A DNA stretch of 64,000 bases, from assembly GCA_014871385.1 (NCBI GenBank), contig CM026424.1, positions 12,862,892 through 12,926,891 of the forward strand. Direction: 5' to 3'. The notes under the pieces were generated by a model. It searched no databases. It was given only the letters and a program-made list of their open reading frames with translations, and was not told where the DNA came from. The stretch's first letter is position 1. Each line of letters begins with the position of its first letter. Shown here in pieces: positions 12,331 to 40,544 of this stretch. The position numbers and the translations under genes were made by a program. Source of the DNA: Ceratodon purpureus. Lineage: Eukaryota > Streptophyta > Bryopsida > Pseudoditrichales > Ditrichaceae.

Positions 12331-13449
12331 AAATATATTCAATTGAACATTGAGGTTGTTCTTATACATTTGCAAAGACAATCATCTCAGCTATTGGTAC
12401 ATAAAATTGAGAAGGTAATGGAACAATGCTCCAAAATATTTGCATCTGCCCTACATCAACAAAATCATGAAGTATCAATAACTGTATAATTTCTTTTTGG
12501 ATGATTTAAAGCAAAAAACAATATTTGCAAAGTTATAAAGCTACTACATTTTTGCATCTTAACCCCTAAAGGCCATTGATGTTTTTGAAGCGAGAACTAC
12601 CAAAAACATATCGCTATTGATAGAATTCTATTGTTTTCTAAATTTAGAGTCAATATTGAATATTTAACCGTATGATCTTGTACCTTCCTTATTCAAAAAG
12701 GTGTATACCAATTCTGAAGACAATCCACCGTATAAATTTTGAGATTGTAACATTTGAAGTCACTGTAAAAAAATTTTTTGACACTGCCCCGTGAGTATAC
12801 CTAAGTCTTGATGCCCAAAAACTATACTTTGCAAACACATTTGATAAATGGAGGATCATCAATCCATTTAGGTATGGACGTTAGGTATAAGCACACAAAG
12901 TTTGAGCCTCATACGACCTTGGAAAGGCAAAAACATCCTTGATTTTGTGAAAGGGGGTGTGCTGAAATTGTCTTACTAAGTTACATTCTTCAAAATTAAA
13001 ACTACTTAAAGGGTGATCTAAAAATGTCCAGTTGAAAATCTGAACGGTAGATATGTTGAAGTCAAAGAAGAAAAGAACCAAAAACAATTTCAATGCAATC
13101 GGAGTAGATCTCAAATTTCTAGAACTTTTTGAAGTGTAATTGTATATTTCATTTCTTTTTGAAAGTGCAATTTTGGTAAAAGGGGGTCATGTGGATGTAC
13201 CCTTTGCCACATCATAGGTAATGGATAAAAATTTTGGAGTGGATGAAAATTGTATGTGGATGAAAAATATATATAATTGAATGAAAACTAAACTTTGGAT
13301 GATAGTTGTCATTTGGATGAAAAAAATCAGCAACTTCTTTAGATGGAAATAGTTAGTTAGATGAAAATTTTCTTGGATGAAAACCGTCAGAAATGTGTAT
13401 GGGTGTAAAAATATTGGACCCATCATTTTGCAAGTGCCCACCCTTTGAA

Positions 13450-13747
13450 TAGGGTTGTCATAACGGACGGACATGGGCCAAATATGAAAACCGGACGGCA
13501 CTTCGGACGGACGGACCTGTCGGTCCCCGACATTTATCGGACATAGCGGTCCCCTAGAAAGAATCAATAGGTATATATCTTCAATATATGCAAGATAAGC
13601 TTCAATATATGCAAGATAAGCTTCAATATATGCAAGATTGGAACGGTCAACCCTAAGTCTCGATCAAACGGACCTTCCTTGACCCTTAACGGACGGACGA
13701 GCGGACCGTATGGCACATCGGACGGGGAGGTCCTGTGAACAACCATG
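13450..13747. mobile_element. Nested hAT-like MITE (298 bp)
   Basis: An 8-bp duplication CCTTTGAA flanks it (13442-13449 and 13748-13755). The ends are TAGGGTTGTCATAACGG and, reversed, CATGGTTGTTCACAGG, with further inverted GGACGG-rich sequence inside. An 8-bp target duplication and TAGGGTTGTC-like, CGG-rich ends are typical of plant hAT MITEs. It lies inside TTAA element 1 and is therefore younger than it. Confidence 0.7.
13579..13641. repeat. 21-bp minisatellite, three copies
   Basis: Three tandem copies of CTTCAATATATGCAAGATAAG; the third ends in TTGG. Located inside the hAT-like element. Confidence 0.9.
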
Positions 13748-14495
13748 CCTTTGAAAATTTGTCTTGTCACTTTCTGCCCTATTGAATGATAGGCAACTTG
13801 GGCAGAAAATGGGAGATTTTCATTGGTTATTGGCTGCCCAAATTTGAGACTGATTCTTCTAAATTCATATCTTTTGCATCATAACTCCAAATGCTTTGAA
13901 ATTTGCGCCATTGGAAAGCTTGTGTTGAGAGCTATACATAGTAAAAATTTCAGAAAATAATAAAATTATGAAACCTTAGAATAGCCTGCCCAATAGGGCT
14001 GCGGCCCGAATCGGGTCTCAAGGGCCTTTTGGGGTTAAGAATTCCATTTTTAAATCTCCTATTGTAAAAAGCCATTCAAATTCTCACAGAATACATTTCA
14101 CTACAATTCACTTAGAGATGGCGTTTTGACTTTTTCTATTAACAATCATTTTTAATAATAAACTTAAGTTATAGTGAACGTCAATAAGAGTTTCATTTAC
14201 AAATAAATCTAAAAAATAAAACAAAAAAATTTGAAATTTTAAGGATCAAAAAACAAAAATATGAGAAATTATTCATGTTCTATTTTTTTATTTTTAATCA
14301 ATATAAGGCTATTTTTATTCATTTTTTGGGCGGAACAATAAACGTAAATAATAAATTTTTGAGAAAAAAATCTAATTATGCCAAAAAATTATTTCCAAAC
14401 ATAAAACATTTGTTCCAGGTGATCAAACATGCTATCAACCTACAATATTCTTTTAAGTTCATGTACTGCCGTATTCATTCAGACACCTTCAATAA

Positions 14496-15434
14496 CCCCT
14501 AATTTTCCTTATGTTTTTGGAAGCTTGAAACCTCAAAACTGCGATTATTTACCTCTATGCACTTCCAAGGGTATAAACAATTTTTAAAAAAAAATTAAAG
14601 ACTTTCAACCAGAAGATCTTGAATCTAAGCCTATTTGTAGTTCTAGTTCCAAAAACTGACCTTTAGATGATTATTCTTTTCAAGATCGTAACATTCAAAG
14701 TTTGTGCAAAAGTTTTTTTGAGCATAATTGCTTGAGAGGCATTGCTTCCACAGTGCGAAGGGAGACTTGAAGATTGTTACCTCAAACATTCCGGCCATAT
14801 TTTTTTCCATGTAGCTAACTAGATTAGGTATGCTCATGCAAAATTTTAGGGACTCAAAACGCTTTTTAGACCTTTATGCAAATTATTTTCTATACAAAGG
14901 TATAAAATTGACAAAATGGTAAAACATGCATTACATAAACAATTTGTGAGCTAAGGAAAAAATGAACGGTGAGTAGGTACCTTTATAAATTTGTGATTTT
15001 CAGAAAAACAATTTTTAAAAAATTCAAAAATCTCGAATTTCGACAAAAATTACTAAAAACTTTGAAGCTTGTCTTTGTAAGTTTTGGAGGCTGCCCTTGT
15101 AAAATTTGACAGCTTTTTGACTTGGATCACTATGAAATTTGAATATTGATTTAGTAATGAAAATATTTCAATTTTTGTTTTTTTAAAGATACCTAATTTT
15201 AGGCTGCCCGTTTTGGACTTGAAACCTAAAATTTCTTCTAAAATTTAAATTTGGCTCCAAAATTTTTACTACATAGACCTTACCATAAACAGAGCACTGA
15301 GTAAAATCTTGAAAAAAACCTTACCATAAACAGAGCACCCAATAAAAAACTTGAAAAAAATATTACTTTTAACATCCCCATCTAGGCTGCCTGAAATTGC
15401 AAAAACCATTTTGGGTTTTAAGGATAATCAGGGA
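14496..15434. mobile_element. TTAA-type non-autonomous element 2 (about 939 bp)
   Basis: Begins CCCCTAATTTTCCTTA; its end reversed reads TCCCTGATTATCCTTA. Flanking tetranucleotides are ATAA and GTAA, both one change from TTAA. Copy B has the uninterrupted site (CCTTCATTAAGACACC, TTAA at 17809-17812), so an insertion at TTAA followed by point mutations explains the data. No coding sequence recognised. Confidence 0.65.
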
Positions 15435-15869
15435 GTAAGGCATTGAGTTCAATTTGTCTACAATGTTAATCTAATAAATAAATTGAAGTCAAGCTATTTG
15501 AACAACCATTATAGTTCATATAGTGGGACTTTAATTTAATAATTATAGCAATCTATATAAGTATCAAAGTGCTAATTGTTTTAATGAAAGTCTTAATTGT
15601 TATAAGAACACCATATTCTTTAAATTGGAAATTTAATCCAATTTTGGAACCACTCAAATTTTTCTTATATTATTCCTAGGACCGATATAATTTTATTCAT
15701 GTTTTTGTGTTCAAACTTTGCAAAAATATTTAATGTATAATTATAATAACATCCAAAAATTACATAAAAAATATACACTTCATATATTTGGAAAAAATAC
15801 TATAACTCATGTAAAAATGATGTCACTTGGAACCATGAAAATTTCCAAATTGATGAATATGTTGTTTAA

Positions 15870-16557
15870 CCATTTAGTGCCAACGTGACCACAAAGTGGT
15901 CACTGAATCACTAGAAAATGAAACGCTGAAAAATCTATGAACTATCTCACTTCGACTTGTGAAGTTCACATGTGCATTTTTTGATTTTGTACATGATGCA
16001 AAAAGAAAGTTTAAAATCTGACTTTCTTAGCTATTCAAAATACCTATGTACAAAACACCAAAATACTTCAAATACCTCAAAAAATAGCAAATACTTACAA
16101 ATACAATACATGTACTATGTGGTATTTCTTGTATTTGCAAGTTTGTTATCTTGAATATTTGTTTGGGATTGTGTTCTCTTGTTCATGTTCTAGTACTACT
16201 GTATATATTCGGATCTTGATCAATGTACCAACTGGTTTCTTATTTTAACATATAAAATTTGTCTAGAACCATACTTAGATAAGTCACTTTCACTTGTAAA
16301 ATCTACGATAATTATGTATGAGTGTGTTCTTGACATGAAAGATTGCAATGAAGAGGTGTCGATATAGGCCATTGTTTAACCTCTTCACTTCTAATTTTGA
16401 AAATTTAACCCAAATTCTAATTAACCTTGAAGACTGAAGTCACACACCTCAAAAAATCTTATAATCCATATTAAGTGTGCATTATTGATCAAATACATAT
16501 TATAATCTTATAATCCAACGGTCCGATCTTACCAAGATTTCTCTGGGCACCAAAGGG
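15870..16557. mobile_element. TTAA-flanked non-autonomous element 3 (688 bp)
   Basis: Starts CCATTTAGTGCC and ends GGCACCAAAGGG, with TTAA at 15866-15869 and 16558-16561. Its body is homologous to element 4 (for example AATCTGACTTTCTTAGCTAT and ATACATGTACTATGT), so two copies of one family are present. The corresponding place in copy B near 17955 lacks it, though the left flank of the site differs between copies. Confidence 0.75.
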
Positions 16558-17140
16558 TTAATGCCAAATGTGATGGATTCCTTTCCTATAGATAGTGAGA
16601 TTTGTAAGATGTTAGTTAAATGATGAATAATAATGACAAATAATAATGACATAAAGCAACTAATCATTTTATACCTTTAATCTCTTAATCCAAAACTTTT
16701 GATGGGTAGTTATGATGGATTCTTTTCAAACTAAAATTTTAAGAATTCTCTTTGAATCATTTGACCATGAAATAAAGCATGAACAATTAAGATCTCATCT
16801 TAGCCTTAAAAAATAACACGTACACAAAGCTAACAACTATAAAATTTCTATAATATATTTTGGACAATGAATGAATGCCATAAATCGCCCTAAATCTAGA
16901 CATTATGGTGGTCAATCTCCCTAAATTTAGACACTCGCGGCGTGAAGGGTCACTATTCAGAGTGATTCCAAGTAGCCAAATTAAACGGTGAGTTGGAGTA
17001 TGCTGTTCCATTCAAATGGTTAACTTTTGAGATTCACACCAATTCACACCACTCCAATATAAATCGTTCACAAAAATTCGTAAGGAAAATGTGATTGTCG
17101 ATTTGAGGAAACCGATATCCAAAGAAGGATGAAGGCACAG

Positions 17141-19292
17141 AAAATATATTCAATTGAACATTGAGGTTGTTCTTACACGTTTCCAAAGACAATTGTCTCA
17201 GTTACTTGTACATAAAATCGTGGAGGTAATTGAGCAATGTTGCAAAATATTTGCATCAAGAAAACCATCAACCATCAATAACAATATATCTTTTGGGTGA
17301 TTTAATAAGAAATATAGAATTGCAAACCTACAAAGCCAATACCTTTTGGCATCTTTATGCAAGTCTTAAGAATTCATTTTTAAATCTGCCATTATAATAA
17401 GGCATTCAGATTCTCACAAAATCCATTTCATAATAAGTCACATAGAAATTGAAATTGAAATTTTAGATTTGCAATCATGTTTAATAAAAAACGTAAGATG
17501 TACTGTATATTAATAACAGGTTTAATTATAAACTATTCTAAAATAAAATAAAAACAAAAATTTAAGGATGGAAAAACAAAAATATGAGAATTTATACTGA
17601 GTGACATTTCTCTATTTTTGATCCATCTAAGGCATTTTTGAATAATTGTTTTTGGAAAAAAAATGAAAAGTTTAATTTTAGAAAGACAAATCTTAGAAAA
17701 GTTAAATTTTAGAAAAAAATCATTCAAGGGTGAACAAACCTACTGTCGACGTAGAGTATTCTTTTGTGTTTCTGTATAGTCATTGTCATAATCAATAGGA
17801 CACCTTCATTAAGACACCAAGTTCAATTTGTCCACATTAATTTAATATAAAAAAATGGATAAAGCCAAGCTATTTGAACAATCATTATAGACAAATACGT
17901 AATTTATAATTTATTAAATACACCAATTTATATAAACATCAAGGTGTTAATTGCTTAAATGTCAAATTTGGTGGATTGCTTTTCTATAGACAGTGAGATT
18001 TGGATGATGAATAATTATGTCATAAGGCTACTAATCTTTTGATCCCTTTAATCCAAAAAATTTGATGGACAATTTTCAAACTAAAATTTCAGGAATTTTT
18101 ATGAATGATCATTTCACTATGAAATTAAACACAAAAAATCACTTATCATCCCTGCCTATAAATTCAACATGCACACAGAGCTAACCATAGAATTTTTGTA
18201 ATATGTCATGGAATTTGGATGAATACCATCCACGAGACATTGGTTACTTTGTGGTGGTCAATCGCCAGAAATCTCGACACTCGCGGAGTTAATCTTTTAG
18301 TACTTAAGTGACCACTTAGAAAATGATCAGTGGATCACTAGAAAATGAAATGTTGAAAAATCTGTGAACCATTTCAATTCAACTTCTGAAGTTTAGATGT
18401 GCAACTTTTGATTTTTTAGATGATCCAAAAAGAAAATTTGAAATCTGACTTTCTTAGCTATACAAATACCTATGTATAAAACACCAAAACATTGTCACAT
18501 TGTCAAAATACTGTAAATACTCACAAACATGATACATGTACTATGTAGTAAAAATGACACATGTACTATGTGCTATTTCTTGTGTTTGCAAGTTTGTAAT
18601 CTTGGAATTTTTTTTTGGATTGTAATCTCTTGTTCGTATTCTAGGAGTGTATATATTTTGCTCTTGATCAATGTATCAACTCCTTTCTTATTTTATTATA
18701 TAATTATATCCTAAACCATACACGGATAAGTCACTCTCACTTATAAAATCTATAATAATTATGTATAAGTGTGTTCATCGACATGAAAGATCGTAATGAA
18801 GAGGTGCTGATAGAGGCCATTACTAGACATCTTTACTTTTAATTTTGAACATTTAACCCAAATTCTATTTATCCTTGAAGTTACACACCTCCAAAATCTC
18901 CATTTTAAGTGTACATTATACATATCAAAGACATTATAATCTTCCAATCCAAAGGTCCGATCTTACCAAGATTTAATTAACACTTGTTGCATTAAGCTAT
19001 GCTTACATTCATACAGTTGGATACTATTAATAGTCTCAATAAAACAGTAATTTATCAAGAAACACCCTAAAGGGTTAAGGGTCATTATTGAGAGTGATTC
19101 CAAGTAGCCCAATCAAACGGTGAGCTAGAATGTGTTGAGTTCCTTTTGAACGGTGAACTTCTAGGAACTCAAGTGCTTTAAGATTCACACCAATTCACAC
19201 CACTCCAAAAGAAATCGTGCACAAAAATTTGTAAGGAGAATGAGATTGTCGATTTGAGGAAACGCATATTCAAAGAAGGATGAAGGTACGGA
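17141..19292 (+). repeat. Tandem duplication of a non-coding unit, copy B (with one insertion)
   Basis: Second copy of the unit described for 12331-17140. It lacks TTAA elements 1-3 but has its own insertion (18293-19074). It ends with GATTTGAGGAAACGCATATT and GAAGGATGAAGG, matching the end of copy A near 17100-17135. Confidence 0.8.
18293..19074. mobile_element. TTAA-flanked non-autonomous element 4 (782 bp)
   Basis: Inserted between TTAA 18289-18292 and TTAA 19075-19078. The right end CACCCTAAAGGG is well kept; the left end TCTTTTAGTACT is eroded. The body is homologous to element 3. Copy A has the uninterrupted sequence CTCGCGGCGTGAAGGGTCAC (16935-16954), where one TGAA (16943-16946) stands for the target TTAA. 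This gives a clear empty/filled pair. Confidence 0.8.
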
Positions 19293-19667
19293 AGAATAGA
19301 TATAGGTGGAGAAAATTAGTTAACTCCTAATGTTGAAATCAACCCAATCAGGGTTGATTTCGGTCCGATCAGGCTTGCAGTTACAAAATTCAGATCAAAT
19401 GAAGTTGCTATTTTTGGCAAATAGTAGAGGTTTTCCATACCTTTCCAAAAAGTCATCTCATGCTTCATACTTTAGGAGAATTTCCCAGTCAAAGTTCAAA
19501 AACACTATTTGAAATCTGCCCAAAACTGCACAAACTACGGTATATGCTCATTTATTCTCATAAACTACAGCCCAAAATCAATTAAATTACAAAAACTTTA
19601 AAAATTCACCAAAAATTGAAATTTTCTTTTTCATCAAGTTTTTTTTTTTCTTCAAGTAAATAAGGTT
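19293..19667. other. AT-rich spacer
   Basis: Low-complexity AT-rich DNA between the tandem duplication and TTAA element 5, with a T-run at 19640-19649. No gene seen. Confidence 0.6.
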
Positions 19668-19671
19668 TTAA

Positions 19672-20424
19672 CCCCCAAATGCCTGAACCTATGACCACGG
19701 AAATAGACTTTGACTTTGGATGCTCTATTTTGCTACTGTAAATGATGTAAAACATTAATTTTTAATTTTTCTTAGTAAGATACACATGTTATCTACAAGC
19801 AATGATTTTATCAAAATTATTGGTTTCATTATATAATTAATATATTTTTTCAAATCAAAACAAACAAAGAAAATTCATATCAAATATAGGTTATACTAAA
19901 AAATTACAAAATATTTACCAGAGATGCATATGACAACCAAGAACTTTATTTTAGTTACAATGCTCAGAAGTTATGTTTTAATTCAAAACTATGATGAAAA
20001 AACCTAAAACCGTGGAAAATCAAGAAGTAGCCACTACTATACCCCTTCATCTTATACCAGCTATAAATCACTTAGTTTTAGGTATTTTTCAAAATTTTAA
20101 ATTGGACCGGAAAACATATTTGTTAAGCTACATTTCATTAGTTTACCTCAAATGCCAAAAAGATCATCCCAATAGTCCAAATTGTGTTCCAGCTATCTAT
20201 TTTAAGAAATTTTAAAATACACACACAGTATTGATATTTTGGACTTTAGGGAGGCACCAAAATTCAAGAAATTATCATTTTGAGGATTCATTATGAGGTT
20301 AGATAGATATCTCTCAACTTTACAACATGAAAAAAAAATGGATGAAAAGTTGTCATTTGGATGACAGTTATGGAACTTGAAAGAATGAGAACAACCAATT
20401 TTTGGTCGTTTAGGCATTTAGGGG
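19672..20424. mobile_element. TTAA-flanked non-autonomous element 5 (753 bp)
   Basis: Left end CCCCCAAATGCCTGAACC; right end reversed CCCCTAAATGCCTAAACG. TTAA at 19668-19671 and 20425-20428. Two internal frames of 71-74 codons have no recognisable domain. Ends belong to the same consensus as elements 1, 3, 4 and 6 (CCCYHWADKGCC). Confidence 0.75.
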
Positions 20425-20428
20425 TTAA

Positions 20429-24600: not shown

Positions 24601-27600
24601 TGCTCCACGGACCTCACACTATCCTTCTTCCGTTCCTTCTCCAGCATCACCAGCGGTCCCTTCTTCGCCACCGTTCCTGAGATCGACAGTTTCCCCAACT
24701 TCTCCTTCCCGCTGCTCGCACCACCGCCATGCCCGCCACCGCTCGACGACCCGCCTCCCGTCCCATCGCCATCCTGCCGCCCGCCACCCGACTGTTTATG
24801 GTCGCTGGAAATGCCGAAGATTGTTCTGAACAAGCTGTCCTCGAACGTCCGCGCCCTCCCCTTGCCCTGCAAAACACGCACAAATCGTTTCCAAAACAAG
24901 TCAGTGCCGCACCCATGGAGGATGCCCCACCCCAATGCGCGTGCGCCTCAACGCATGCTGCTTCACCCACGCTCATGCAAACCTACACCACCTACGCCTC
25001 GCAAACCTGCAACTCTGCACGCTTCCAATACTTGTACCATACTCCTACCCCCAACTCCCTCTACACACACACCATTGGACCACCAGTTCAGAAACAACCT
25101 TGTCCGCGCCCGTTCCTTTCTCCCTCACCGACTGATCCTTCTTCACCTTCTTCGATTGCTTGTCCGCCGACATCTCTTCCTCCAGTAACTTCGGTGCCTT
25201 TCGCTTTCTCTGAGACAGGCTCCGATGAGGCAGATGCATCATCTCCGACTGCTCATCCCCGTACGAAGGGTCGCCGCCCGCTTCCGCGTGGTAATCCTCT
25301 CCCACGGAGTTATCCTCCGTATCGGACACCAGAGAGCCCTCCGCCAGAGATTTGAACTTCGCCTTCTTCGACTTCTTCTTCCCCTTCGACTTCAGCGTGA
25401 AGTTCTCAGCACCTCTCACCGTCGCCGCAGCTTCAGCCAGGGCCCTGCTCCAGCTCATCCACACACCATCGAACGTCATCATCAAATACGACCTTCACCC
25501 CCATCAAAACTCTACAACCCAGTGCCACACCATCCCAGACGACCACGACAGCCACCACACACTTCTATGCCAGAGCCGCCGTCTCTATTCCTCGACTCCA
25601 CCACACACTAATACTCAGAGCACCCTCCATCCCACGAATACTGCATCTCATACATGACCAGCTTGAAAGGGAAACTCACCTGTCGGCATCACGCATCTCT
25701 TCCTCCATTGCTTCCCATTCCAACTGCTTCTGTTCCTGCTCAACACAGACGGCCTCAGAGCCACTCGGCTGCATCAACTTCTATCACTCCCAAAACATAA
25801 TCCGATGTATCTCGCCTACTACGAACGATGAGAGACCAGCCTCCCCCGACCAACCATTCCATGGTACAATGATACACACAAAAACACCAACCCTTGCTGA
25901 ACTTTCTGAAAGCATCCAAACCAGCCTCCCAAAGTTGCAGTGCGGTGCAGTGCAAACCTGTTGCTGAGCGAGGATATCGACTTGCTGGCGATACGCCTCA
26001 TCAGCTAATGCTGTGTCCCAAGCTGCAATACATTCAAGACAAGCACGGTCATTCCACACGCCCCTCCCCATGCTTCAATCCACAACAACCGCGAAACAAT
26101 CCTATCCTACCGATGAGCACCACTGCCAACTCGACCGCACAACCACGCAATCCCGGAATTGCTCACGCACAGAACGACCATGCAACTCGCCCACCACAGA
26201 CCACAGATCACAAAACAACAGGCCTGTCCCTCCAGCATTTGCATCACGACAACGTAACACACAAACAAACAGAAAGCTCCAAGCTCTCAGCACACAACTT
26301 CTCCGCTCTGAGCTCAACCACGCACCCGCATCGTCCTACCCCTCGTCAACAAACTCTCACCTCCCACTCACACAACTTCAAATTGCAGAAAGAAACGCTC
26401 AACACGTACTTTCGTAAAACAAAGGCTCATTGTCCTCGTCAATCTCTGCTTCCTGCTCCTCCTTCAGCTTCTCTAGTTGATCCAGTTCCCACTCCTTCTC
26501 CTCGAATGCCACCTGCATTCACCACGCATACATCTCAGACAACTGCGATCCCAATGCTCTTCCAGTGCGAATCCACGGATCAATCCAGCAACGCACGATA
26601 CGGTCGCCTGCGACTCCAACTATTCATCCAATTCACACCGGCACTGAACTGCACTGCACGCTGTAACTATGTTGTTCTTCCTACACCCCTTCGTCAGGGC
26701 ATCATCGGAAATGCTCACCAACTAATCTGCAGCAACATGTGCAATGCCAAAACAGCCCCAATCCACTTGCCTCGCACACCTTACCATGTCGTCATGCATT
26801 TCACCACCCCCAAATAACTCCAAGTCCCGACACAAACCCGAGCCGACACACACATCGAGGACCTACAACCCCACCAATCTATGCACTTCCACACACACCC
26901 CAGACTGCAGTCACCAGGTCTCTGAACGCCCCACACAGTACCTGTGCTACCACGGCCAAGTTATCCACCCGGGGGTCCCATAGCTCCAAGAATCGCATGG
27001 CATACCGCTCCACTGGACGCAGCTGGTCCTCGAACGATCCGCTCCCTCGTCCGGATGCTGCTGCCGCAGCTGCCATCTGCCGCACGTCCGCGAGCATGTC
27101 CATCTCCTCGTCTGCCTCGGTGGCCAGAATCGAAGACTCCCCAAAGGGTAGCTCCTCTGTTCCCACCACCGCCCCACCCTCTTCCGCGACTCTCTCCCCC
27201 CCTGCTGCAGGACCGCCCGCCACCGCAACGTCGCTCGGAGGCCTTCCGCTTCTCCCGTTCTCGTCCAAGTCGTCCGCCAGATCTTCGTCGTCCAAGTTTC
27301 CGGCGAACACCTCCTCCGTGAACTCTTGATGCTCCGCGGCCTCTTCCTGCTCCACTCGCTTCATCGCCATGTAGTCTGCCTCGTCTTCCGCATTCTTCAG
27401 CGCGGCTTCCACTTCCGCATTCGACAGCTCCTTCTGTTCGAACGCCTTCGCCGACGCCGCGTCCGGGGTCCCACCGCCGGAACCCGCCCCGCCCGTCGCT
27501 CCAGAACCCTTGCCCGCGGATCCACCCACCTTCACCCCCTTCAGCCCGGAGAACAGCTCCATCGGGTCCAACTTCTTGAAGAAGTCCGTGTTGTAGCTCC

Positions 27601-30600
27601 CGCTCTGGATCACCAGATCGTCCAGGATCCGCTTCTGATTCGCCTTCTTCAGGATGTTCTCCTCGATCGTGCTCTCGCTGATCAGCCGGTATATGTGCAC
27701 CTCTCGGGTCTGCCCGATCCGGTGACACCTATCCTGGGCTTGCAAGTCCATCGCTGGATTCCAATCGCTGTCGTAGAAGATCACCGTGTCCGCGCCCACC
27801 AGGTTGATCCCCACGCCCCCGCTCCGCGTCGACAGAATGAACAGAAATATCTTCGGATTCGTGTTGAACCGCTGCATCAGAATCTGCCGCTGCTCTGGCT
27901 TCGTCGACCCGTCCAGCCGCATGTACGTGTACCCGTACAGGTTGATGAACGACTCCAACACGTCCAGCATCTTCGTCATCTGCGTGAAGATCAGCGCCCT
28001 GTGCCCCTCCGACTTCAGCCTCCGGAGTAGCACCGCCAGCTCCTGCAGCTTCCCGCAGTCGAACTGCAGCAGCCTCCGATCGGGGAAGAACAGCTGCCGT
28101 CTCACCACCACCGGCCGAAGAGGCACCAGCATGCTGCTCGCCTCTTGCAGCACCTCCTCCGAGATCGACTGCCTCAACGCCGGCCCCCCACCTATCGCGT
28201 GGCTGCACCAAGCCACGGGAAGCGGCGCCCGGGCGGCCGGAATCGCGAACATGAACGAGGTCACCACATCCATCACGCGTTCGCACCGCGTCAGAGGCAG
28301 CTGCACCATCTCCGACACGATGCTCGAGAACTCCAGGTACCGCCTCGGATTGCCCTCCACCCTGTGCACGTCGTGCACCGGATGCAGCACCTCCACGCTC
28401 TTCAGAAAGTCCGCCCCGTACACCGGCTGCCGCCCGCACCGCAACTCGTTCACCATCCACAGTGCCACCACCCTCTCTCGCCTCCGCCTCTCCCTCTCCC
28501 CCCTCAGCACCGAATGGATCTCCTCCATCACGCTCCGAACCTCCCTGCTCGGCTTGTGCTTCGACTGATGCTGCTCCCACGTGTCCACGCCCGTGCTCGC
28601 CAGTTCCACGATCACCGGACCCGGAGTCTTTATCGTCGCCACCTCCTCTGCCTCCCAATTGCTCATCGCCCCGCTCAGCCCACTGAACTGCAGGTTCAGC
28701 GTCTCCATGTCCACCCCTTCCAACGGGCTCCTACACATCGCCGAGCACGCCGCAGAGCTCAGATGCACCTCCATGCCCGGCATGTCGAACGAAGAGACGA
28801 TCGGCCGACCCTCGAACAGGTCCGGATGATTGCACACCTTCCGCAGCTGCATCAGCACGTTGATCAGGCCCAGAAAGTTGCCGCTCGACAGAGTCGCCTG
28901 CGTGTCCGAGCTCGCCATGAAGTCCTCGTACAGATTCCGCTGCCGCTTCGACAGACGGCATCGTATCACGTGCTCGAACTTCCCCGGCAGCTGCTTCTCC
29001 ACGTCCTTCTTCAACCGTCGCAGCAGGAAAGGCCGCAGCACGTTGTGCAACCGATCCACCAGCTCCTTGTTCACCTGGAAACAATCACACGCTCAGATCC
29101 CATCCTTACTCACACACGCAATCAGTGCCCCCCACCCCCAACATCCCCACTATGCTCCACAACCCAACACGCCCGCGTCAATACCTGGTCCTCGCCCTCC
29201 ACCATCCCCGTTATCGGATTCGAAAACCAGTCGCGGAACTCCTGATGAGACTGGAACACGTGAGGCATCAGGAAGTGCATGAGAGACCACAGCTCCATCA
29301 GATCGTTCTGCAGAGGAGTCCCCGTCAGAAGGATCCGCCGCTTCGAGTTGAAGTTCAGCAGCGTCTGCCATCTCTGCGACTTCCAGTTCTTGATCAGATG
29401 CGCCTCGTCCAGTATCAGGTACTTCCACTTCTTCCGCTTGAATGCCTTCGCGTCCTGTATCACCAGCCGGTACGTCGTGATGCACACGTGGAACGAGTTC
29501 GCTCTCGACCATCCCTGTCGCTTCACCTTCCTTTCCTTGGCGCTCCCGAAGTACGTCAGTATCTTGAACGCCGGGCACCATTTCATGAACTCCGTCTCCC
29601 AGTTCAACATCACGCTCGTCGGCACCACGATCAGATGCGGACCCCATATGCCTTTCTCGCACGCCAGGTGCGCCAGCAGTGCGATCGTCATGATCGTCTT
29701 CCCCAGCCCCATCTCGTCTGCCAGGATCCCGTTCAGCCGCTTCTCGTACATCGTCACCAGCCAATCCAGCCCGATGTGCTGGTACTCCCGCAGCGAGTGC
29801 TTCAGCAGAAACGGCAGCTTCGTCTTCACTTTCGTCGTCGAGAATGTGTACCCCGTGGGTTGCGCTGACTGAGCGGCCGCAGCAAAGTCGGCCAGCCTCT
29901 CCTCGCTGTTCTTCTCCTCCCCCACCTCCACGTTCTCCGCTTCTGCGCCCGCCACATCTGCACTCCCACCTTCACCGGGACCCAACCCACGGATCACGTC
30001 CAACCCGTCCTCTGCTTTGCCCTCCGTGCCCACGTCAGACTCCACCAACGCTCCGTCACCCACATTCTCCGACTCGCCTCCCACACCTCCGTTCGCCGCC
30101 ATGCTGTCGAATCTCGCCGCATCTGCTGGATGTCTACTCGGATCACCTTCTACTGCAAGAGACACGCCCCGCGGGGAGAGACTCCCATCACCTGCTCGCC
30201 TCCCCTTTGCCCCTCCCGTTCCCAGAATCGTCCCCACCTCTGACTTGCTGCCAACCTCGCCGCCTCCACTTGCATTCGCTGACCTCCTCATCATACGATC
30301 GCCTCGCCGCCTCGCGGCCTCGCTCACCTTTGCAACAGCTGCAGCTGTCTCGGCATCCACCTCACCGCCCCCTCCCAGCAGCAGCGATGTCGACGACGCC
30401 CCACTCTTCGAAGACCCTGCTCCCGAGAACCCGTTCCTCCCAGTATTGTGGGCCTCGGAATACAACACCTTCCCCTGCACGTCCATCTGCCACATTGCAC
30501 AGCACCGTCCACCCACACACCATCAGCGGACTGGACCGGAAACCCCTCACATTTTCCACAACCAAGGACAGTAGCCACCCGAATCATGGCGGTCTAGGCA

Positions 30601-38348: not shown

Positions 38349-38352
38349 TTAA

Positions 38353-38744
38353 CCCTTTAATGCCTACGGCACCAATTTTGGTTGCAAAAGTATGTTTATT
38401 GATGCCTGTGTCTGAATGACGTGGAATTTGGATATGAGTTCTTCCCATCGAATAGGGGCAGGTAGTTAATCTGTCCAATGCACTAAAATTTAGTGAATTC
38501 GCATACTTTATGTGTCAGATATGACCTGAAAGGTGGCATATTTATATTATAATGACCCTTCATCCACGGTTGTATGAATTTCATCTAAGGATGACGACAT
38601 CGTGACATCATCCCCTTCACATCCGTACGGTTGGAGAAGGCAGATTCTCTTTTTTAAATGACGTGGACCACTAAGAGGGATATAGCTCAACTCATGTTTT
38701 TTTTGCTGAACCATTGTGCTGAGACCGCCTTAGGCATTAAAGGG
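38353..38744. mobile_element. TTAA-flanked MITE 6 (392 bp)
   Basis: The clearest member. Left end CCCTTTAATGCCTACGGC; right end reversed CCCTTTAATGCCTAAGGC; TTAA on each side (38349-38352, 38745-38748). It lies about 1.3 kb upstream of the PIE1 start codon. The internal sequence shows no open frame. Confidence 0.85.
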
Positions 38745-40544
38745 TTAATATAACAATAGTATTAACTCAAAAGGAGTACAAAACATGAAATTGATGGAAA
38801 AAATGAAAATAACATTCTATTCAAGTGTGATCTTCATGATGTTGTGGTATTAATCTAAATGATGATGATGGGTGTATTGATTACATTTTATTTTTTTAAT
38901 GTGAGTTCTCAAAAAATATTCAATTGCATTTTAAAATGTAATATATATGGTACGAAAAGAATATTCAGTATTAAGAAATTGTAGTTTAAAATCAGTAAAA
39001 TAACTATAATTATTCAAAAAGACTACAAAGTAATTTGACTCAAAGGTCCATTATGATAAATATATATATATATATATACCATAATAGAATATTTTTTGTA
39101 ACATATTATTAATTTGTTATTTTATTTTCATGGTATTTACATTTGAATATACACGTATGTGCAAATTTAAAAACAAAACATCTAATTTACCAATTCTAAA
39201 AGATATATTTCTTTTTTTTCAAAATAATTATACTTTTAAATAGCTTATTCTATGGGACATATGAGAGAATCATATTTTCAAAGTTTTTTTGTTTTCAATA
39301 CCACAATCGCAAAATAAAAATAAAATGATAAAATAATAAAGACTATAATTATATTTGAATTTATTAATAAATATATACAAGGGTTATGTAAAACGTCACT
39401 TGCATAATTTGTTGCTATATCTTTACTTAGCATAAATACACCTTCAAATTTACGATTCTTTTATGAATATTTTGTAGTATTTTTTTGATTTTATGGCCTT
39501 ATACAAGGATATAAGTACCTTCCTTAAGGTAATCAAAGCAAGAAATTGAAACTTTTTTGTCAACTATAACTTTTCAACAACACGATTTACAAACATTGAA
39601 TATCGTGGTTGAAGTTAAGTAAAAATTGAAGGCATTGCATCCACACATCATGTATTAAGCAAATTGTATGATTTTCTTTAATAATAAAAATGATGAAAAA
39701 TATCTTATGGAATGAATTATATATTTTTAAAATTTTAAAATAAATAAATAAATAAATAATATTATGGTTACAATGGTATTATCTGTTTTTCAAAAAAATA
39801 TGTCAATTCAAAATGTTATTAATCAAATAAATTAGAGGAGAATGAAATATTGCGAGTAATTTTTTTATTTTATCAATAAATTAAACAGCACGCGTCAATG
39901 TTGACTTGATAATGCTTGTGAAGGCCTAAAAGAGGTCCAGATCTGAATCCAGTTGCATGTACTTTGCTTCATTGATAACAATGAAACTTTTACATTTCAA
40001 TTTCATGTTTCGATAAAAAATTAATGATAGAACAATCAATGATGTTTAATATTTTAAAATTATAATTTAAATGATTCAACATGTATAACAATTTTGTCAA
40101 CTTCATAAAGACCAATGTTTATTTATTTAATAATGAATTTTTAATATTTATAATTTTTATTTTATTTTTTAAAAATGTTTGATTTGAATAGAAATAAAAA
40201 TAAATTATAATTATAAATAAAATAATATGAAATTAGATCATATTTACAAATTTTCATAAACAAATCAAAATTTCAATGTCTAAAAAATTATTTGCAAATT
40301 AGTTCCATGTACAATTATTTTTACATAAAGTTTCTTAAAACAACTATAAATCTATTTTCATCAACAAAATTCAACAATATTCTTATCTATTATGGTTGTG
40401 ATTGTTGACTATTTGTATATAATTCATAATCTTTAATACAACGGCTAATTCATCAATTAAGCAAAATGCATAATGAGGGACAAATCTCATCACTGTGCTT
40501 TAAGTAGCAACTAAGCAAGCCAACAGTTAGTACAACGATGAGGA

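Follow-up and report, generated by a model that had tools for sequence, protein, structure and literature searches.

Probable piggyBac passengers in the moss Ceratodon purpureus and a palindrome at a set distance from one end

Mobile DNA of the piggyBac superfamily is known best from insects and bats. The subject here is a set of six short elements, E1-E6, in a stretch of DNA from the moss Ceratodon purpureus (the window: 64,000 nucleotides, C4:12862892-12926891, on contig CM026424.1 of assembly GCA_014871385.1, which holds 362,488,568 bases in 151 contigs); C1, C2 and so on denote contigs and L-numbers fetched loci. For the piggyBac element of T. ni, a passage of PMC7351741 describes two cysteine-rich domains that dimerise on a palindrome at base pairs (bp) 17-33 of one end, with a narrowed groove near bp 25. 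For piggyBat, the portion of PMC11707139 drawn on places an imperfect palindrome three bases inside the bp 11-16 motif of the left end, and gives none for the right end. Some caution is called for, as the cysteine-rich domains of piggyBac proteins do not all fold alike and may have other binding targets (PMC8086355). An earlier reading of the window's letters (the original prediction) held that piggyBac-like elements are seldom described from land plants, a claim that was only partly checkable and has to be softened: plants already stand among the listed hosts (PMC8086355, and likewise a section of PMC10813416), and a repeat table of the fern Ceratopteris, as excerpted, gives 1230 PiggyBac fragments covering 122,417 bases (PMC6890710).

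With a probability of roughly 90%, E1-E6 are non-autonomous moss transposons of the piggyBac superfamily, comparable to miniature inverted-repeat transposable elements, which consist of ends only and are moved in trans by the transposases of full-length piggyBac-like elements elsewhere in the genome. Their tie to these transposases rests on the tips, the elements carrying no transposase themselves, as the original prediction had also stated.

The window elements, their empty counterparts and their copies

Six non-autonomous elements with CCC-like and GGG-like ends lie at TTAA, E1-E5 at 12.56-20.42 kb and E6 at 38.35 kb. In window coordinates, the features are as follows.

E1, 12563 to 14034, unstranded: non-autonomous element, probably of piggyBac type, with TTAA at 12559-12562 and 14035-14038 and a nested hAT-like element inside
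E2, 14496 to 15434, unstranded: non-autonomous element with degenerate flanks ATAA and GTAA, its boundary taken from copies
E3, 15870 to 16557, unstranded: non-autonomous element with TTAA at 15866-15869 and 16558-16561, the final 17 bases not in other copies
E4, 18293 to 19074, unstranded: diverged relative of E3 with TTAA at 18289-18292 and 19075-19078 and no palindrome at bp 25
E5, 19672 to 20424, unstranded: non-autonomous element with TTAA at 19668-19671 and 20425-20428, the right tip being the 5' tip
E6, 38353 to 38744, unstranded: young non-autonomous element of 392 bp with TTAA at 38349-38352 and 38745-38748
Empty host-repeat copies, 16900 to 18009, unstranded: 16900-17005 for E4, 17142-17464 for E1, 17729-17890 for E2 and 17958-18009 for E3

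The tip of E1, TTAACCCCTAAAGGCC, starts at 12559 and its inverse finishes at 14038; the corresponding positions are 15866 and 16561 for TTAACCATTTAGTGCC in E3, 19668 and 20428 for TTAACCCCCAAATGCC in E5, and 38349 and 38748 for TTAACCCTTTAATGCC in E6, where both ends are exact. Inverted tips starting with CCC are thus found at both ends of E1, E5 and E6, while E3 and E4 each have one mutated tip; the left tip of E4 is degenerate (TCTTTTAGTACT), yet TTAA flanks this element on both sides, and the right tip of E2 is TCCC. E4 is 78% identical to E3 across 708 aligned bases. As stand-alone proof the tip pattern in the window was rejected, a loose 16-mer with three mismatches giving 12 matches against a shuffle mean of 6.3, with 4 of 100 shuffles reaching 12. 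Because this is near chance, the proof was taken from copies and empty counterparts, which, like the TTAA flanks and the tips, are directly observed and bear out the predicted set of six TTAA-flanked elements running from CCC to GGG.

The host DNA that separates the elements is also repetitive, and second copies of it within the window lack E1, E2, E3 and E4, showing in their place a single TTAA or a one-base variant. The cleanest empty counterpart is that of E4, at 16.9 kb, the joined flanks reading CTCGCGGAGTTAAGGGTCATT and the empty copy CTCGCGGCGTGAAGGGTCACT. The counterpart of E1, near 17.2-17.46 kb, has 11 additional bases beside TTAA; that of E2, at 17.73-17.89 kb, was compared using a right cut at 15412, earlier than the final end at 15434; and that of E3, near 17.9 kb, matches poorly on its left side. 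No empty counterpart was found for E6, whose flanks match only at their own site in the genome, the two flank matches there overlapping by exactly TTAA.

A near-identical inverted copy of window positions 12559-20424 lies about 0.2 Mb away at C4:12667550-12676046 (L030, L089), arising either from recent segmental duplication or from the assembly. The E1 copy in this duplicate (L089, C4:12674790-12675650) holds an extra insertion of about 740 bp that is absent from the window's E1. The insertion has perfect GGGGGGAAGCATGATAAAGTGTAC ends, shows a duplication of four bases (TGAT) and represents another young family, not one at TTAA.

Copies of the elements are spread through the genome, and their flanks, the check proposed with the original prediction, are mostly TTAA. 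E1 has 42 genome-wide matches, and both tips were seen in seven of eight fetched copies, the six non-window ones measuring 1155-1169 bp including the TTAAs; the window copy is longer because of the nested hAT-like element. This 298-bp insertion (window 13450-13747) has ends TAGGGTTG and CAACCATG and an 8-bp duplication, CCTTTGAA, that is present once in uninterrupted E1 copies. For E2, 38 similar places were found (window and duplicate excluded), 28 of them continuous at least as far as query position 1020. Of these 28, 22 end at 1033-1040 (window 15432-15439), another five at 1020-1029 and the last at 1056. The remaining ten end earlier, seven of them with a second piece further along. After this comparison of copy boundaries, a right end near 15417 was replaced by 15434. 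E3 likewise has 38 places under the same exclusions, of which 25 end exactly at query position 671 of 688 and none beyond 681, so that the right boundary of the E3/E4 family is provisional; one fetched copy and the copy on C6 run on into sequence also present in E4.

Among thirty fetched copies of E5, counting the one in the window and its duplicate, TTAA is exact on the left in 27 cases, on the right in 25 and on both sides in 22, against a TTAA background of 0.69% in their flanks. E6 is represented by 54 candidates, of which the 40 scored show 97-100% identity over 391-392 of 392 bases, the window's own copy included, and copies at 97-99% identity are spread over nine contigs. The E6 tip TTAACCCTTTAATGCC has 96 genome matches against one for the reversed control, and these tips form 34 facing pairs, 30 of them exactly 400 bp apart and the others 379, 395, 402 and 1479 bp, with 28 tips unpaired. 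Five such pairs, 400 bp each, lie in the 161 kb around the window (C4:12740363-12901639), a case of local clustering or duplication. Sixteen of the 40 scored E6 copies are on C6, a contig of 110.5 Mb that makes up 30% of the assembly; its very large size fits a sex chromosome, the U and V of C. purpureus each exceeding 100 Mb, or about 30% of a 360-Mb genome, according to a passage of PMC8000587.

These copies bear on the idea that the families are dead relics, spread by segmental duplication and no longer moved. The inverted copy of the window region is what such a history would leave behind, and age speaks in the same direction: the E5 sample diverges from its majority sequence by a mean of 4.7% (range 2.9-8.0%), and the best matches of E1-E3 outside the inverted duplicate reach 77-88% identity. 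Against it, just six flank pairs are alike among the 30 E5 copies, two duplications accounting for four of these pairs and L053 taking part in the other two, and the E6 copies are nearly identical on nine contigs while the flanks of the window's E6 are found once. The relic explanation is therefore improbable, and the state of the transposase genes, described below, counts against it as well.

Transposase genes and the ends of full-length elements

The profile DDE_Tnp_1_7 identified 116 places among 998 candidates, all above the cut-off, and had no match in 14 control genomes; 93 of the 116 domains are without a stop. Four transposase frames compared with Pfam gave E-values of 4.7e-76 to 4.7e-85. 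The frame at C6:44867566, the only one compared with solved structures, matches piggyBat at 3e-35 and T. ni piggyBac at 2e-25, and the catalytic residues D268, D346 and D447 of the latter (numbered as in the relevant part of PMC7351741) all align to D in the moss frame. Stop-to-stop frames are often 800-1150 amino acids long, and at the sequence level CxxC pairs occur in the C-terminal tails of all 11 proteins printed, two of which come from stop-broken frames. Ratios of nonsynonymous to synonymous substitution (dN/dS) were tried for ten pairs, three being dropped for unequal length: five older pairs, two of which are close to saturation at synonymous sites, gave 0.05-0.14, and two young pairs gave 0.36 and 0.66. 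The low values of the older pairs speak for long purifying selection, and together with the 93 stop-free domains they argue against dead relics.

The long open transposase frames are observed to be bounded by the same kind of ends as the window elements. Of eight transposase loci read on both sides, seven have TTAA-CCC at both ends, the first seven not being a blind sample (L009, L014 and L028 already showed one tip, and L067 was chosen for its tip). In six of these first seven the ends are 3.9 to 5.8 kb apart, and full-length elements with a transposase span 3.9-6.5 kb overall. The eighth locus, C2:10598030-10604526, has an open frame of 1151 amino acids and shares the 5' tip of E5 over 49 bp at 92%, diverging thereafter; its 3' tip, CCCCCAACCGCC, and that of E5, CCCCCAAATGCC, both at TTAA, are alike by eye with no significant alignment. 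Judged from these tips, the locus is the best candidate for the mover of E5. An E3-like tip lies 3.8 kb upstream of the transposase at C2:8204194, and E6 tips also bound a 1479-bp intermediate at C8:702977-704455; an E6-like 5' tip occurs at one transposase locus only, L067. A proposed link of E1 to the L012 lineage through a similar tip was dropped, as the two gave no alignment. Tandem tips, reading TTAACCCTTAACCC or TTAACCCTTTAACCC, were seen at L075, L078, C1:1998981, C1:3607434, C1:15397813 and C2:19448134, seemingly through insertion of one element into the TTAA flanking another.

The autonomous partner that the original prediction expected thus has its counterpart in transposase domains, most of them free of stops and, at seven of the eight loci read on both sides, enclosed by TTAA-CCC ends. 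That prediction had left open a choice between piggyBac and Sola3, a DDE superfamily that also targets TTAA. If Sola3-like elements had moved E1-E6, the TTAA target and the short inverted ends, which are said to be common to both superfamilies, would look much the same; here, however, piggyBac transposases are flanked by the same tips, in which the palindrome is likewise positioned, and E5 has 49 bp in common with one of them. The like tips around piggyBac transposases and the E5 tip match point to piggyBac, the superfamily whose transposase was searched for, so that Sola3 is not needed and is very improbable as the source of the movement.

A palindrome inside the 5' tip

When the tips are compared side by side, most elements have an imperfect palindrome just inside one tip only, for example GTGACCACAAAGTGGTCAC in E3, and wherever a transposase sets the orientation this is the 5' tip. 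In the window, the palindromes are placed as follows, each at bp 17-33 from the tip named.

E1 palindrome, 14002 to 14018, minus strand: right tip, with 7 of the 9 pairs matching around axis 25
E2 palindrome, 15402 to 15418, minus strand: from the right tip if that tip is 15434, 7 of 9 pairs
E3 palindrome, 15886 to 15902, plus strand: left tip, with 8 of the 9 pairs matching
E5 palindrome, 20392 to 20408, minus strand: right tip, with 7 of the 9 pairs matching
E6 weak palindrome, 38369 to 38385, plus strand: left tip, with 5 of the 9 pairs matching and another axis being better

For E2, the tip at 15434 was preferred to 15433 with the palindrome in view. Symmetry was scored as nine base pairs around each of 166 axes. 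The exploratory set held 12 elements, without E2, whose ends were uncertain at that stage, and with L067 represented by one end. Axis 25 came out highest there, summing to 68, where the mean over all axes was 37.1 (standard deviation 5.4) and the next axis reached 49; it was top or joint top at one end in eight of the 12, the exceptions being E4, E6, L012 and L014. As the idea came from this set, a hold-out of 20 new 5' flanks was written down beforehand. An exact TTAACCC tip was present in 11 of these flanks, giving 13 tips as two loci have two in a row, and over the 13 tips axis 25 summed to 72 (mean 29.7, standard deviation 6.9, next 45). With the inner tip used wherever a locus had two, axis 25 was top or joint top in eight of 11 loci, two of these eight (L069 and L073) belonging to one family.

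The spacing was also seen genome-wide. A free-spacing pattern, TTAACCC N4-34 GACCA N5 TGGTC, has 432 matches against one for the reversed pattern, and among the 100 matches listed 90 have the predicted gap of 14, three with a gap of 21 and one with 22 being tandem tips; many of the matches are copies of one family and so are not independent. On C1-C3, 37 transposase hits were taken, 31 of them eligible in the listed stretch, and for seven of the 31 a tip of this pattern lies 2.7-4.0 kb away to the 5' side; no such tip lies to the 3' side of any of them. The letters of the palindrome vary by lineage (GCGACC/GGTCGC, CGGACA/TGTCCG, AGGCC/GGCCT), and differing letters at a fixed place indicate that symmetry is conserved rather than sequence. 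Six pairs are reached by chance at 335 of 20,000 random window positions, and a loose scan of the window for tip plus palindrome gave 16 matches, mostly away from element tips, so that the palindrome alone is no detector.

By analogy with the solved systems, we infer that the palindrome is the site of the cysteine-rich domain pair and the mark of the 5' end. As far as a brief literature search shows, such a reading of the left-end palindrome rests on the two solved systems, and the same search found no survey of palindrome position across piggyBac elements. The elements could also be piggyBac passengers in which the bp-25 palindrome, instead of binding cysteine-rich domains, belongs to a hairpin or promoter at the 5' end, and its occurrence at the 5' tip, the place of a promoter, would suit that. 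End recognition is better suited by the fixed distance from the tip and by the presence of the palindrome in E1, E2, E3 and E5, passengers without a gene, and the position equals that of the solved binding site for cysteine-rich domains; a hairpin or promoter role is accordingly unlikely.

Several findings weigh against the combined picture of passengers, movers and palindrome. L067 has a 5' tip, but in the 2 kb read for its 3' end no tip was recognised; a genome-wide tip search revealed no autonomous element bounded on both sides by exact E6 tips; and E1-type 5' tips, with 43 matches, come no nearer than 16.3 kb to a listed transposase domain, none being within 16 kb. The right tip of E3 is not common to its copies, which qualifies an otherwise favourable outcome, no copies having ends that run past the proposed CCC/GGG boundaries. 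A good palindrome at bp 25 is lacking in the L012 and L014 elements and in E4 and is weak in E6, the main exception being the L012 lineage, the largest among the first 20 loci, in which the one member read has none. In the hold-out, three of 11 loci (L068, L076 and L082) fail, and nine of 20 flanks are without an exact tip in the fetched stretch.

Proposed mechanism and comparison with known systems

In the proposed mechanism, a dimeric DDD transposase core would grip both tips while a pair of C-terminal cysteine-rich zinc domains would hold the bp-25 palindrome of the 5' tip. Excision would proceed through TTAA hairpins and be followed by insertion into a new TTAA, as modelled on T. ni piggyBac. 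The palindrome would serve as an orienting, lineage-specific address in which the letters change while the symmetry and the distance from the tip stay fixed. More tentatively, and in our estimate with slightly less than an even chance, the moss may harbour numerous piggyBac lineages from a radiation that is old yet still mobile, in which every lineage pairs a 5' palindrome of its own with a matching cysteine-rich domain. The palindromes would then form an address code that chooses the passengers a transposase carries, their position having been kept from moss to moth and bat. Many natural pairs of transposase and palindrome, with fixed geometry and varying letters, make the recognition rule testable by comparison; the special value of the system lies in this natural palindrome series at a fixed position, and its piggyBac elements are native to a plant and include a young family of passengers.

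Elsewhere in the window, at 26879-30522 on the minus strand, open frames in a GC-rich part resemble a SWI2/SNF2-type chromatin remodeller by eye.

Lanisha (Maumus, McDaniel, Carey; PMC12730594) is another cut-and-paste superfamily, and the authors naming it overlap those of the Ceratodon genome preprint. It was rejected as the identity of the window elements: in the part of that paper drawn on, Lanisha is EnSpm-like and its group has mostly CA..TG ends, not TTAA-CCC.

With T. ni piggyBac (PDB 6x67/6x68), as presented in the sections of PMC7351741 used here, the moss elements have in common the TTAA target, the CCC tip, the DDD transposase, the C-terminal cysteine-rich domain and the palindrome at bp 17-33. 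The T. ni element differs in that it has the palindrome on both of its ends at unequal distance, whereas in the moss elements it is seen on one end only, and its transposase has 594 amino acids against the 800-1150 often found between stops in the moss. The piggyBat element of Myotis lucifugus (PDB 9c0f) is the closer sequence match of the moss frame tested and likewise has its palindrome on the left end only, going by the relevant portion of PMC11707139; in piggyBat the motif and palindrome are described three times on the left end. Ceratopteris has elements of the same superfamily in a land plant, and C. purpureus adds at least 116 transposase domains and several passenger families. piggyBac passengers and a large set of likely movers are of a known kind, and for a land plant they are strikingly abundant.

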